Notes under the pieces: generated by a model
What the model was told of the DNA's origin: nothing
The model's database searches: none
The model's input: only the letters and a program-made list of their open reading frames with translations
Shown here: piece by piece, positions 42,928-48,978 of the stretch
Position numbering within the stretch: position 1 is the stretch's first letter
How the letters are laid out: each line of letters begins with the position of its first letter
Position numbers and translations under genes: made by a program
Assembly (NCBI RefSeq): GCF_019575955.1
Contig: NZ_CP080575.1
Location: forward strand, 434,001-498,000
Source: Nesterenkonia pannonica
Lineage (GTDB): Bacteria; Actinomycetota; Actinomycetes; Actinomycetales; Micrococcaceae
Direction: 5' to 3'
Length of the DNA stretch: 64,000 nucleotides

Positions 42928-44104
42928 GTGACGCCGCCGCGCGTCAGCGCCGCCTGGGCCCGCGGGGCTGTCGTCGCTGCCCAGGGGATCCCCGCCCCGG
43001 GCGGCCCAGGCGAGCACCGCGACGCCGCTGAGGTGCTGCGAGAGCTCGGACTGATCCAGCTGGACCCGCTGACCCGGGTCTCCACCGCCCAGCGGCTGAC
43101 CTGCCTGACCCGGCTGTCCGGCCATGCGCGTGCGGAGCAGGTGGACGCGGCGCTCTGGCCGGATCCGGCCGTTTATGGCCCTGCCTCCTTCGAAGCATTC
43201 ACGAAGGTGGCGTGCGTCTTCCCGGTGCAGGACTGGCCGCTGCTGCGCCTGCGCAGGGAAGCGGTCCGAGCCCGTCACGGCCACAAGGTCGAGGCGGGAG
43301 TGCGCGATCGGATCCTGGAGCTGGTGGCCGAGCACCCGCAGGGCGTGGCCACCGGAACTGTTGAGAGCGAATTCGGGCCGGAGCGCACTGCCGGATGGCA
43401 GTGGTCTCAGGTGAAGAAGGCGACGGAGCTCATGGTGCGCATGGGGATCTGGTCATCACGGCGCGCCGAGGTGCGGTGCGGCTGTTCGATCTGCCGGAGC
43501 GGGCGCTGCCGCCCGGAGTGCGCGAGGCCGAGCAGCTGCCTGCCGATGAGCTCAGGGCCGGTTTGGCCCGCCGCGCCGCCGGCGCGCTGGGGTGATGACA
43601 GTCGCCGACTTCGCCCATCACTATCACGTCAGCCGGGCCGATGCTGGCCAGGGCGTGGAGGCGGCAGGCCTGCTGCCGGTTGCGGTCGAGGGCTGGAAGG
43701 ATCTCGCATACGTGACGCCTGAGACGGTGGAGCGCGGCGCACCGGAGCCCGGTTTGGGTCCGGTCAGCCATGCGCGGCTGATCGGGCCCTTTGACCCTCT
43801 GCTGAGAGATCGGGGCCGGGCCCAGCGGATCTTCGGCTTCGACTACCGGTTCGAGGCGTATGTGCCCCGCGATCAGCGGATCTACGGCCACTACGTCATG
43901 GGGCTGCTCTCCGGGAACGAGCTGATCGGGCGAGCAGACGTCCGGCGCCGCGCCGGGGAGCTGGTGGTGGGTCAGACCTGGCACGAACCGGGTGTCCGGC
44001 GGCGCAGCGCAGAAGCTCGCAGCGCAGCTGCCGCCGCCACACTCGCCCGCCAGCTGGGCGTGCAGATGGTGCATCAGCCCAGCGAAGGCGGGATCGATGA
44101 GTGA
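42928..44104 (+). CDS. YcaQ/AlkZ-like winged-helix DNA glycosylase family protein
   Basis: About 392 residues. Members unhook DNA crosslinks or bulky N-alkyl adducts. The N-terminal Q-x-D motif is present in LGLIQLDPLTRVSTAQRL, and the C-terminal block reads IGPFDPLLRDRGRAQRIFGFDYRFEAYVPRDQRIYGHYVMGLLSGNELIGRADVR, strongly family-like. One G is lost near 43446 (restores MGDLVITARRG). It uses GTG 42928 and overlaps the following acetyltransferase by 8 bases. An intact GCCGGC at 43578 shows that not every copy of the motif is miscalled. Confidence 0.84.
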
Positions 44105-44696
44105 GCGGAATCTTTGCCTGGCCGCGCCGCCTATGGAGCACGGGCCTGTGCGGCTGGAGCCGCTCGCCGCGGAGCACGCTGCGGACCTGGCAGAGGCGGT
44201 GGTGCCCGGTGAGCTGTGGCGCACCTGGTATGCCTCTGTTCCGGCGCCCGAAGCCGTGGGGAGGAGATCGAGCGGCGCCTGCAGAAGCAGGCCGAGGGCG
44301 ACATAGCCGCGTGGGCGGTCGTCGAGCGTCGCACCGGCAGCGCGGTCGGGATGACCACCTATCTGAACTTTGACCTGGCTCATCGACGTCTGGAGATCGG
44401 CTCCACCTGGCTCGGTCAGAAGGTGCAGGGCACCGGCATCAACCCCGCGATGAAGCTGCTGCTTCTGCAGCGGGCGTTCGAGGAGCTGGGCTGCATTGCG
44501 GTGGAGTTCCGCACGCATTGGCACAATCACCAGTCCCGTGCGGCGATCGCCAGGCTCGGAGCCAAGCAGGACGGGGTGCTCCGCAACCACCGAATCCTGC
44601 CGGATGGGACGCTGCGGGACACCGTCGTCTTCTCGATCCTTGATTCGGAGTGGCCCGCGGTGAAAGTACCTCCACCATCGGCTCACCAGGCGCTGA
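44097..44696 (+). CDS. GNAT acetyltransferase (RimJ/RimL-like)
   Basis: About 200 residues, N-acetyltransferase of the ribosomal-protein/small-molecule type: MEHGPVRLEPLAAEHAADL, WAVVERRTGSAVGMTTYLNFDLAHRRLEIGSTWLGQKVQGTGINPAMKLLLLQRAFEELGC, VEFRTHWHNHQSRAAIARLGAKQDGVLRNHRILPDGTLRDTVVFSIL, the acetyl-CoA-binding loop being Q-x-T-G-I-N. A G is lost near 44258. I place the stop at 44694-44696 (KYLHHRLTRR-stop) assuming another indel near 44665; unrepaired, the frame runs on to 44821 into the next promoter, which is unlikely. Confidence 0.8.
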
Positions 44697-44776
44697 TCCC
44701 TCAGCTGATGCTGAAGGCGCGGCGAGCTCTGCCGCAGGTAAGAGGCCGGAGACCGCAGACAGGTGCGTTCCGCATA

Positions 44777-44792
44777 TTACGTAATTACGTAA
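44777..44792. promoter_or_regulatory. Perfect 16-bp palindrome TTACGTAATTACGTAA (operator)
   Basis: The sequence equals its own reverse complement and contains tandem TTACGTAA units, strikingly A/T-rich in this genome. It lies 18 bases upstream of the ArsR-like start codon, overlapping where a -10 element would be. The likely operator for autoregulation by that ArsR-fold protein. Confidence 0.75.
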
Positions 44793-44810
44793 AACATGTA
44801 TTATGTCGCC

Positions 44811-45312
44811 ATGAGTCATGACGAGCGCATAGCTGCCCTGGAGCGGCGGGTGGCCGCACTGGAGGAGCAGCGGCATGCTCCGGTCGAGACTGAGGCCGGG
44901 TCGGGGCCGATGGCACCCTCTGGGCTCTGGACGGGCTGCGTTCCCGTCTCCCCGAACCGGGCGGGGTGCTCATGGTTTACTCCGTGCAGACGCCGAACGG
45001 GGCCAATGCGCGCTGGCAGATGGCCGCGCCTGCTGAGGCGTTCTTCGACTCGGACTTCGCGGAGCGCGCCGAAGCGCTCTCCGCTCTGGGGCATCCCGCA
45101 CGTCTGCGGATCGTGCAGCGGCTCATGAGCGACGCGGACACGGTGCAGGATCTGGTGGGCACTGGCGAGTTCGGCACCAGCGGGCAGATCTACCACCACA
45201 TCAAGCAGCTCACCGCCGCAGGATGGCTGCGCTCCGTCGGCGGCGGGCGGTACGAGGTGCCCGCCGCTCGCGTCGTCCCCTGCTGACCACTCTGCTGGCG
45301 GTCGACCGATGA
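44811..45312 (+). CDS. ArsR-family winged-helix regulator
   Basis: About 167 residues. After a coiled-coil-like start (DERIAALERRVAALEEQ) and a linker comes AEALSALGHPARLRIVQRLMSDADTVQDLV.TGEFGTSGQIYHHIKQLTAAGWLRSVGGGRYEVP, an ArsR-type DNA-binding domain, with C-terminal LLTTLLAVDR. I see no paired metal-binding Cys, so the signal is not obviously a metal. Base losses near 44916 and 45276. The stop overlaps the next start (ATGA). Heads a three-gene unit with a small membrane protein and an M23 peptidase. Confidence 0.8.
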
Positions 45313-45494
45313 GGCGGATGATCGCACGCCTGAGAAGGCTGTGGACCGCGCTGCTGATGGCTGCGCTTCTGAGCATCCTCGCCGACATGCTGGGGCTCAT
45401 TAGCCCTCCCGGAGGACTCGTATGGGTCCTGGCCGTGATCGGGGCGATCGTGCTGCTCTCCGCCGCCATGGGGTGGCCCCGCGCGCGCCGGTGA
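45309..45494 (+). CDS. Small two-span membrane protein of unknown function
   Basis: 61 residues, undamaged: basic start RRMIARLRRLW, span 1 TALLMAALLSILADMLGLI, short loop with PPGG, span 2 LVWVLAVIGAIVLLSAAMG, basic end. It overlaps the ArsR stop by 4 bases and the M23 start by 4 bases (GTGA), so it is almost certainly translated. No family recognised; it may anchor or assist the peptidase. Confidence 0.65.
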   Translation: MRRMIARLRRLWTALLMAALLSILADMLGLISPPGGLVWVLAVIGAIVLLSAAMGWPRARR

Positions 45495-46191
45495 AGGAGC
45501 CCGTCGAGGTGGCCGCCCCGGTGCGAGGACGATGGATTGCCGTGAACAGTCCGGGCCAGAAGATTCCGAGCCACGGCGGCGCACGGTCGCGGGGGCAGCT
45601 GAGCGCCGCGGACATCACACACCCGACCCACCATGAGCCCGACGAGAACCCTCCGCTGGTCCGGCGGGGCTGGCGGGGCAGCCGACCTGAGGAGTTCACG
45701 TGCTTCGGCGCGCCCATCCGTGCGATGGCCGACGGCACCGTGACGGAGACGGCGGACGGCCAGCGCGACCAGCGTGCGCGCAACACATGGCCGACTCTGC
45801 TGTGGATGATGACTGTCGAGGGGCGGTGCGCGAGCTGCTGTTCGGCTATCGGGGCATCTTCGGCAACCGGGTGGTGATCGCACACGACGACGGCACCTGC
45901 GCCGCCTACGCCCACCTCAAGAGGGGCTCCGTCACGGTGCGGCCGGGCCAGCGCGTCGCCCAGGGCGACCTGATCGGACGGCTCGGGAACACCGGCAACA
46001 CGTCGATGCCGCACCTGCACGTGCAGCTGATGGACCATCCCGTCATCGATGCCGCAGCGGGCATCCCGATGCGCTGGACGAACATCGAGCTGGAGGACAT
46101 CGACCCCCAATGGCAGAAGCACGCCAAGGCGCCTGAGAGGTCAGCCCTGGAAGGCATGCCGCGCGACGGTCAGATCTTCCGTGCGTTGTAG
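45491..46191 (+). CDS. M23-family metallopeptidase-like protein
   Basis: About 234 residues, LytM/M23 fold. The metal/catalytic end is SMPHLHVQLMD (H-x-H) after GNRVVIAHDDGTCAAYAHLKRGSVTVRPGQRVAQGDLIGRLGNTGN, and the earlier SHGGARSRGQLSAADI supplies the H...D pair. This version usually acts as a peptidoglycan or peptide hydrolase. No signal peptide is evident, so access to the wall would need the small membrane protein or it acts inside. A base is lost near 45823. Confidence 0.78.
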
Positions 46192-46232
46192 GCTGAACGC
46201 CGAGTCTTCAGACCCCACACCAAGGAGGAGCC

Positions 46233-46718
46233 GTGGCGACAGTCCGCGACGTGACCATCGAAATCCCTGCCGGATCCCGCGTGAAGTACGAGATCGACCA
46301 TGAGACCCACCGCCTCCGCCTGGACCGGGTCCTCTTCACGTCCATGCAGTACCCCACGCACTACGGGTACTTCGACGACACCCTCGGCGAGGACGGCGAC
46401 CCCCTCGACGCGCTCGTCTGCATCCCCGGCGTCGACCTGATCCCCGGCGTAGTCGTCGAGGCCCGCACCATCGGCATGCTGAACATGACCGACGACGGCG
46501 GAGGCGACGCCAAGCTCATATGCGTCCCGGACGACAAGCGCTTCGACAGCATCACCGAGCTCTCCGACCTCGACGAGCAGCTGCTCAAGGAGATCGAGCA
46601 CTTCTTCACCCGCTACAAGGACCTCGAGCCGGGGAAGTGGGTCAAGATCGAAGGATGGGAAGGCCGTGAAGAGGCCGAAGCCGAGCTGCAGCGCAGCATC
46701 GAGCGCTACAAGGGCTGA
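46233..46718 (+). CDS. ppa: Inorganic pyrophosphatase
   Basis: Undamaged 161-residue family I soluble pyrophosphatase: PAGSRVKYEIDHETHRLRLDRVLFTSMQYPTHYGYFDDTLGEDGDPLDALV contains the E, K/R, Y and the D-x-D-P-x-D metal signature; DDKRFDSI and HFFTRYKDLEPGKWVKIEGW complete the site. It hydrolyses PPi to drive biosynthesis. GTG 46233 follows AAGGAGGAG. A strong terminator follows directly. Confidence 0.95.
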   Translation: MATVRDVTIEIPAGSRVKYEIDHETHRLRLDRVLFTSMQYPTHYGYFDDTLGEDGDPLDALVCIPGVDLIPGVVVEARTIGMLNMTDDGGGDAKLICVPDDKRFDSITELSDLDEQLLKEIEHFFTRYKDLEPGKWVKIEGWEGREEAEAELQRSIERYKG

Positions 46719-46736
46719 GACGCCCCTGCTCCATGA

Positions 46737-46774
46737 GATGAGCCCGCACCCACCGGAAGGGGTGCGGGCTCATC
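46737..46774. terminator. Perfect 15-bp hairpin after ppa
   Basis: GATGAGCCCGCACCC at 46737-46751 pairs exactly with 46760-46774 around an 8-base loop. It stands 18 bases after the ppa stop and just before the convergent peptidase stop, so it may serve both directions. No T-run. Confidence 0.8.
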
Positions 46775-46798
46775 CGCGTCTGAGCCTCGACGGGCCGA

Positions 46799-48978
46799 TC
46801 AGCGCACGGGCTCAGCGGCCCCCAAGTGATGTGCGAGGAACGCGTAGTCCCAGGCGCGCTCCCTCCACTGCTCGTACCGTCCCGAGGCGCCGCCGTGGCC
46901 GCCGTCCATCTCACATTTGAAGACGATGGGCGCCTGACCCTGCTGATGCTCGCGCAGGGCCTGCACCCACTTGGTAGCTCCACATAGAGGACGCGGGTGT
47001 CGTGCAGCGAGGTGACGGCCGCGATCGCCGGATATGCAGTGTCACGGACGTTCTCATAGGGGCGTAGGACTTCATCAGCTCATAGACCGCCGCGTCCTCG
47101 ATGGGGTTGCCCCACTCCTCCCACTCCAAGGCTGAGAGCGGCAGGTTCGGATCGAGGATGGTGGTGAGGTTGTCGACGAACGGCACCTGCGCCACGATCG
47201 CCCGGTACTTCTCAGGAGCCATGTTCGCCACAGCGCCCATCAGGAGTCCGTAAGCAGAGCCGCCGAGGGCGGCCACACGGTCAGCCGCGCCCCAGCCCTG
47301 GGCGACGAGGTGATCGGTGGCGGCGATGAAGTCGGTGAACGTGTTGGTCTTCGCGAGCTTCTTGCCCGCCTCGTACCAGGCCCGGCCCAGCTCGCCGCCG
47401 CCGCGGATATGCGCGATCGCGAACACGATCCCGCGGTCCAGCAGGCTCAGCCGGGCGATGCCGAAGACCGGGTTCATGCTGATCTCGTAGGAGCCGTACC
47501 CGTACACCAGCAGCGGGTTGGTGCCGTCGGCGGTCACGTCCCGGTGGTGGATGACCGTGACCGGCACCTGGGTGCCGTCCTCGGCCGTGGCCCACACGCG
47601 GCTGGTCCGGTAGGCGTCGAGGTCGACATCATGGACGGGCGTCTGGCGCCGAAGGGCCGGCGCGGCCACATCGTCGTGCGCGATGTCGTAGATGCGCGGC
47701 GGGGTGAGCCAGGAGGTGTAGACCACCCGGAAGATCGGAGCCTCATACTCGGCCGCAGCGAGGCTGAGCGTGTACAGCTCCTCCTCAAACTGCGGAGAGT
47801 CCAGTGAGGACGGCGCCACCGGCGCCCCGCCGTCGCGCACCTGCCGGATGGTGTCCAGGGGGAGCAGGAAGACCGACTCGACCGTGTCGACCCGTGCGGT
47901 CACCAGCACCTGGGACGCGGTGACGATCAGGTGCTCATCGACCTTCACCGTGTCCTCATGGGAGAGCAGGGGCCTGCCGGGGCTGAAGGTCTCAGCGCCG
48001 ATCTGGGCCTCCAGCTCCTCCGCAGTGGTCAGGGAGACTGAGTTGTTGGGCCCCTCGGCGCTGTGGACCAGGACGATGCGGCGCTCGCCGTCGAGCTCTA
48101 TGGGCTCGGCGCTGTGCAGCAGGCGGCGCGTCTCGGGGACGAGGAGCCGCGGCTCGGCGGAGGGGTCGGAGACGTCGAGGGTGCGGGTGGCGTTGTACTC
48201 CGAGTTGCCGGAGACGATGACCAGCTCCTTCTTGTCCGCGGAGAGGCCGAACCCGGTCCACAGCTGCTCGTCGCCTATCTCGAGCAGCAGCCGGTCCTCC
48301 TCGGCGGCGGTGCCCACCGTGTGCTGGTAGAGCCGGTATGGACGCCAGGCGGCGTCCGCCACCATGTAGTAGACGCGCTGGCCCGTCGGCTCGAGCAGGC
48401 CGCCTCCGTGGACGCTGTCGACCTGCTCGGCCAGGTTCTCGCCCGTGGTGAGGCTCCGCAGGCGCAGGGTGTAGTGCTCATCTCCGCTGGTGTCCTCGGT
48501 GTAGGCCAGCAGGCTGCCGTCGGCGCTGATGGAGAGTCCGCCGATGGAGTAGAAGGGGTGCTCGGCGGCCTCGGCGTTGGTGTCGAAGTAGACCTGCTCA
48601 CCGTCGAGCTCCACGCCCGCCTCCACCTGCGGTGGCTCCCAGGACTCCGGGTCCTCAACGGGCACCCGGCAGAAGATGGGGTGCTGCTCGCCCTCGATGG
48701 TGCGGGAGAAGTACCAGAAGCCTCCTCGGCGGGATGGGACGGAAAGGTCGGTCTCGACGGTGCGGTGCCTGATCTCTTCGAAGATCGCCTCACGCAGCGG
48801 CTGCTGCTCGGCGGTGACCGCATCGGTGTAGGCGTTCTCGGCCTCCAGGTGCGCACGGACCTCGGGAGTCCTTCTCGCGCAGCCACTCGTAGGGATCGGT
48901 GAACGTGTCGCCGTGATGGGTGCGCTCGACGGGCACCTGCTTGGCCTGCGGCGGAGTGGTCGTCGTCATGACTGCCAT
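46799..48978 (-). CDS. Prolyl oligopeptidase family serine peptidase (oligopeptidase B-like)
   Basis: About 725 residues: N-terminal DPYEWLREKDTPEVRAHLEAENAYTDAV, seven-bladed propeller, then alpha/beta-hydrolase. The nucleophile motif reads AALGGSAYGLLMGAVANMAPE; the family has GGSAGG, and the scar at 47250-47255 (GCTTAC for GCCGGC) exactly explains the Y. Asp in TSLHDTRV and His in DGGHGGASGRY complete the triad. It cleaves oligopeptides after basic residues. Base losses near 48870, 48700, 47060, 46977 and 46825. The start is 5 bases after the response-regulator stop. Confidence 0.9.

Follow-up and report, generated by a model that had tools for sequence, protein, structure and literature searches.

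A conserved palindrome upstream of an ArsR-fold regulator and its exchangeable partner genes suggests an autoregulated operon in actinobacteria

Within the 64-kb window, the whole stretch of Nesterenkonia DNA that was analysed, the 16-mer TTACGTAATTACGTAA is its own reverse complement and thus a perfect 16-bp palindrome. As a preliminary description of the locus had stated, it stands out from a GC-rich background, lying in an AT-rich island with a GC content of 29% (44770-44804) vs 68% in 44000-46200. The palindrome is followed by the gene for an ArsR-fold regulator which, by an ATGA overlap at 45309-45312, runs into the gene for a membrane-anchored M23 metallopeptidase (Table 1). Allowing up to 3 mismatches, TTACGTAATTACGTAA has no second match within the window, and 100 shuffles gave none. 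A genome-wide search, proposed in the preliminary description as a check, found it to be unique at up to 2 mismatches across the whole 2,699,453-base genome, and a looser operator pattern added one extra weak site, at 2139324. In a literature search we recognised no paper describing a regulator-M23 operon, and the exact 16-mer appeared in none; tentative S. coelicolor locus numbers led to one paper, PMC4255298, with nothing relevant in the part available to us.

Table 1. Features of the operon in the window
Feature	Position	Strand	Remarks
Operator TTACGTAATTACGTAA	44777..44792	.	Perfect palindrome; site kept upstream of relatives; putative auto-operator
-10 element TATTAT	44799..44804	+	6 nt before ATG; putative leaderless promoter; same geometry in 68/79 relatives
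ArsR-fold regulator gene	44811..45312	+	Two frameshifts, near 44910 and near 45280; tblastn pieces; single ORF in relatives
Membrane-anchored M23 metallopeptidase gene	45309..46191	+	Two frameshifts, near 45480 and near 45830; tblastn pieces
N-terminal TM hairpin of the M23 protein (the "61-aa membrane protein")	45309..45494	+	tblastn alignment

A listing of the open reading frames 3' of the palindrome yields fragments only, and the frames were then inspected one by one. With the unbroken Nesterenkonia muleiensis (L062) proteins, regulator and M23 peptidase, as tblastn queries, we found the window regulator to be spread over three frames (about 44811-44910, 44912-45280 and about 45280-45309) and the M23 gene likewise (45309-45488, 45473-45820 and 45838-46188), with PF01551 recognised on the last M23 piece (E 2.3e-17, 63.4 bits). 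The locus had previously been read as three complete genes, each overlapping the next by 4 bases, the second encoding a separate 61-residue membrane protein. Only the overlap between the regulator and the next ORF survives this analysis. The 61-aa protein aligns with the first 61 of the 311 residues of M23 from N. muleiensis, and at all eight loci of the genus where M23 is the partner (L004, L006-L012) the TM hairpin and the M23 domain form a single ORF of 288-311 aa; the regulator is likewise one ORF at those eight loci. Because hairpin and M23 domain are fused in the genus orthologues, we rejected an independent 61-aa protein and regard both it and its overlap with the peptidase as frameshift artefacts. 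The earlier in-frame ATG at 44796, which the preliminary description had chosen, is a less likely start for the regulator. As read from these alignments, the true unit is a regulator, an ATGA overlap and a membrane-anchored M23 peptidase, and the window copy is the same operon with frame breaks. Given that the source genome is rated 62.5% complete despite being a single contig, sequencing indels are the simplest and likely cause of these breaks; alternatively, the frame-broken genes may be real pseudogenes. Neighbouring AlkZ-like, GNAT acetyltransferase and prolyl-oligopeptidase-like genes (window 42928-48902) also appeared by eye to be split between frames, which fits an indel-rich assembly.

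In the AlphaFold2 model of the regulator (mean pLDDT 91.5), two helices, one at 2-24 and one short, are followed by a beta-hairpin (52-74), a winged helix-turn-helix (HTH) and a C-terminal helix. Using Foldseek, about 90 residues aligned to CadC, Rv0081, CzrA and SmtB with a probability of 1.00 and a best E of 1.7e-3 (none at or below 1e-3). PDB profile matches reached E 7e-7, and the matches to all 14 solved chains begin at position 83 or later. The first family member scored 27.3 bits against the PF12840 cut-off of 27, and 24 of 25 members matched this model at E up to 0.1; no Pfam model matched the first member before residue 87, and a few members gave weak matches to NdhS (4/25, best E 0.0015), MerE and coiled-coil models. 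Together these data identify an ArsR/SmtB-type winged HTH, as previously described, and the reported coiled-coil N-terminus is also recovered, the first frame piece of the window regulator being coiled-coil-like. The remark that no metal-binding Cys is visible holds across the family: Cys occurs in just 3 of 48 members, one each, and the sole Cys of the correct-frame pieces in the window would sit in the frameshifted tail. No metal-binding Cys motif was found, and NCBIfam HTH_metalloreg scored 31.5 bits against a cut-off of 55. Because Cys is nearly absent and the NCBIfam metalloregulator models fall below cut-off, we class the regulator by its fold and reject its identity as a metalloregulator. 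The family is patchy in the phylum, with E<1e-20 matches in 10 of 296 genomes; 141 of the 296 match the regulator alignment at E 1e-3, mostly via a short HTH stretch.

The regulator thus resembles the ArsR/SmtB repressors CadC, CzrA, SmtB and Rv0081 in the winged HTH fold of about 90 residues and presumably in governing a local autoregulated operon. It differs from them in carrying about 75 additional N-terminal residues, which form a coiled coil and a beta-hairpin, in its scarcity of Cys and in its site, a 16-bp sequence whose two ACGT cores lie 8 bp from each other. Another autorepressor of the ArsR family is CdsR of Bacillus thuringiensis, whose target is likewise an envelope protein, the holin-like LrgAB (PMC11009283). 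Unlike the present regulator, CdsR has 95 aa and lacks the N-terminal extension; according to that paper it represses lrgAB directly, lrgAB is absent from its listed neighbour genes, and the part of that paper available to us names no palindrome of the present type.

To define the site in relatives we scanned named genomes with the regulator alignment, which gave at least 584 confirmed stretches; the best 80 were analysed, a set that consists of the nearest relatives and is not a random draw. By title these belong to actinobacteria: Nesterenkonia, Dietzia, Georgenia, Actinoplanes, Actinomadura, Micromonospora, Nocardioides, Streptomyces and other genera. A site close to TTACGTANTTACGTAA lies upstream of the regulator in these best 80 of at least 584 loci, scoring at least 11/15 in 78 of the 80 vs 13 of 1600 dinucleotide shuffles (none above 11), although the consensus was built from the same 80 best-scoring loci and other tests therefore weigh more than this count. 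The two loci below threshold were L064 (score 9) and L116 (score 7), the latter misanchored and its site visible on inspection.

Eight M23 relatives come from genomes of the family that gave no regulator match; none of the eight has the site, the best scores over 900 bases being 7-9. Of 296 genomes of the class, four contain the exact pattern, each time at the operon described here. Where the gene order is reversed to M23 then regulator (G804), the site stands ahead of the first gene, and a looser-pattern match in G859 led to a new family regulator whose gene overlaps the accessory SecA gene behind it by 4 bases. A copy on a Deinococcus plasmid carries TTCCGTAATTATGTAA ahead of the regulator, and the site also stands before the regulator where the partner is a serine hydrolase, an ABC protein or SecA. 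Among 29 Micrococcaceae relatives, seven (L013, L015, L016, L018, L019, L020 and L024) have a weak or altered site, as does a Kocuria plasmid copy, and no site was visible at one distant Streptomyces plasmid copy, which is partnerless. The preliminary description had let its reading of the palindrome as an operator stand or fall with presence upstream of orthologues; the site is present there, which favours that reading.

We also considered a wider regulon in the genus and rejected it: the looser pattern with 2 mismatches matched 19 of 30 genomes, but the reversed control matched 14 of 30, making the search noisy. Ten of the 19 had a match at an operon of the regulator family and nine only elsewhere; G165 and G276, which encode the regulator with a serine hydrolase, gave no looser-pattern match at their operons because their sites have diverged. 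A phage origin was likewise rejected, as 36 pattern matches in viral contigs yielded 0 confirmed cases. A second palindrome, TTGCGTAAGTACGTGA, recurs without mismatch in six of the 30 genus genomes; G188 and G089, which belong to these six, gave no regulator match, and in L179 the palindrome lies at 1501-1516, outside any long ORF. It is perhaps the site of another regulator. Separately, in L021 (G146) an inverted repeat with perfectly matching 27-bp arms around a 2-bp centre lies upstream of the operator, at about 1218-1273 on the regulator strand.

We evaluated the promoter by taking the first in-frame start codon past the site as the start at 79 loci (the best 80 of at least 584, with L116 omitted). 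In this set, TANNNT ends 6 or 7 nt before the start at 68 of 79 loci (34 each) vs 7% in shuffles, and a Shine-Dalgarno-like motif is seen at just 1 of the 79. A TTG-type -35 element is present at 36 of the 68 TANNNT loci. The transcript is apparently leaderless, and the operator would overlap the core promoter, as repression would predict.

The gene that accompanies the regulator varies. Among the best 80 of at least 584 loci the partner is an M23 peptidase at 63, a PF00144 serine hydrolase at 14 and an accessory SecA at one (Compostimonas, L125, the same pair as in G859); none was found at two (L074 and L131). The M23 partners were recognised by motif at 59 loci and by tblastn at L075, L086, L114 and L116, the genes at L075 and L116 being apparently frame-broken. 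The 14 serine hydrolases form one BLAST cluster, from which two were tested and both matched PF00144; a simple SxxK match was missing from L063 and L124 among six inspected. By inspection, 29 Micrococcaceae loci comprise 15 with M23, 12 with a serine hydrolase and 2 with an ABC ATPase, and at the one ABC locus read further a 505-aa hydrophobic protein comes next. Regulator and M23 genes overlap by 4 bases at 14 of the 59 motif-recognised loci and by 1 base at 4, the others being gapped. A conserved third gene was rejected, the commonest neighbours occurring at only 24 and 20 of the best 80 loci (of at least 584) and kilobases away.

In a regulator tree of 104 rows, from which L116 and six family loci duplicating named loci were omitted, the well-supported branches require at least 4 changes for M23 and at least 5 for the serine hydrolase, one of the latter perhaps reflecting just the partnerless L131; single joins are uncertain because long branches meet. 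M23 and serine hydrolase partners are both present inside the genus. On the evidence of these sequences, partners have been swapped several times and the effector is interchangeable and envelope-associated. On a Deinococcus plasmid (L175, 3513-6060) the gene after the regulator is an apparent multi-TM M23 gene split by a transposase gene pair, and in a Nesterenkonia-group genome (L188, 1744 onward) an accessory SecA gene is coupled to a family regulator.

The M23 partner carries the PF01551 domain (70.9 bits vs a cut-off of 28.7), and a Foldseek search with its model (mean pLDDT 87.3) gave matches to LytM, lysostaphin, ShyA and EnvC at about 1e-7 to 1e-6. It shares their H...D...H...HxH pattern, with H89, D101, H202, H235 and H237 invariant across 39 M23 rows; by LytM chemistry these are the putative zinc and catalytic residues. 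The first His lies 12 residues before the Asp, an unusually long spacing compared with 4 residues in LytM, and in the window copy this spacing is longer by one residue still. Unlike LytM, lysostaphin, ShyA and EnvC, the protein also has a long insert with a hydrophobic helix (161-178) and a two-TM anchor with a domain predicted to be cytoplasmic. Two hydrophobic segments precede the M23 domain in 56 of 59 proteins. Across the 59, Lys/Arg averages 3.0 before the hairpin, 0.2 in the loop and 2.6 after it, and is higher after the hairpin than in the loop in 50; Asp/Glu averages 2.3 after the second segment, leaving a small net charge there. Since Lys/Arg flank the hairpin and are nearly absent from the loop, the positive-inside rule, applied with the hydropathy of these proteins, predicts that the M23 domain is on the cytoplasmic side. 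In the part available to us, a 2022 review of M23 enzymes names the cytoplasm for pre-lysis phage endolysins and in general terms, but for no resident M23 enzyme (PMC9662197).

These data allow us to propose a probable two-gene, negatively autoregulated operon, in which the ArsR-fold regulator represses itself and the membrane-anchored M23 peptidase via the palindrome. The regulator, probably as a dimer, would bind TTACGTANTTACGTAA, where operator and core promoter of its leaderless transcript overlap, and would thereby keep both its own gene and the M23 metallopeptidase gene behind it from being transcribed. Repression would be lifted by a signal, probably not a metal, that may act through the coiled coil and beta-hairpin at the N-terminus. 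Other lineages would use this regulator-site pair for a different effector, which is a serine hydrolase, ABC transporter or accessory SecA.

What the operon is for can be read in several ways. A wall-remodelling or envelope-stress module, as the preliminary description had suggested, is possible if doubtful; wall damage would then be the signal, and peptidoglycan would be cleaved by the M23 enzyme on the outer side of the membrane: the fold matches and the five invariant residues agree with it, as does the alternative PF00144 partner, from a family that includes DD-peptidases, but Pfam reported no wall-binding domain and the predicted cytoplasmic position of the catalytic domain conflicts with direct wall cleavage. 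Rather tentatively, the M23 protein may instead be a membrane-tethered intracellular peptidase acting on cytoplasmic peptides, wall precursors or the co-encoded repressor, forming a regulator-protease feedback signalling pair. It is unlikely that the operon serves detoxification or resistance, with the regulator sensing an antibiotic or peptide and the effector destroying it (M23, serine hydrolase) or exporting it (ABC transporter); local repressors of ArsR-like type commonly control resistance genes and the partners include PF00144 proteins and an ABC ATPase with a membrane protein, but the accessory SecA fits poorly. It is very improbable that another transcription factor binds the palindrome while the regulator acts elsewhere, since, although further ACGT palindromes such as TTGCGTAAGTACGTGA exist, the site tracks the regulator over four partner types and is missing where the peptidase stands alone.

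The autoregulated operon proposed here places a regulator family, its operator and its promoter geometry, all defined from sequence alone, in many actinobacteria, including Streptomyces. The choice of effector appears modular. The finding is broader than the preliminary account of the locus. A cytoplasmic M23 peptidase, if true, would be unexpected and could point to a feedback pair rather than to a wall-hydrolase operon.
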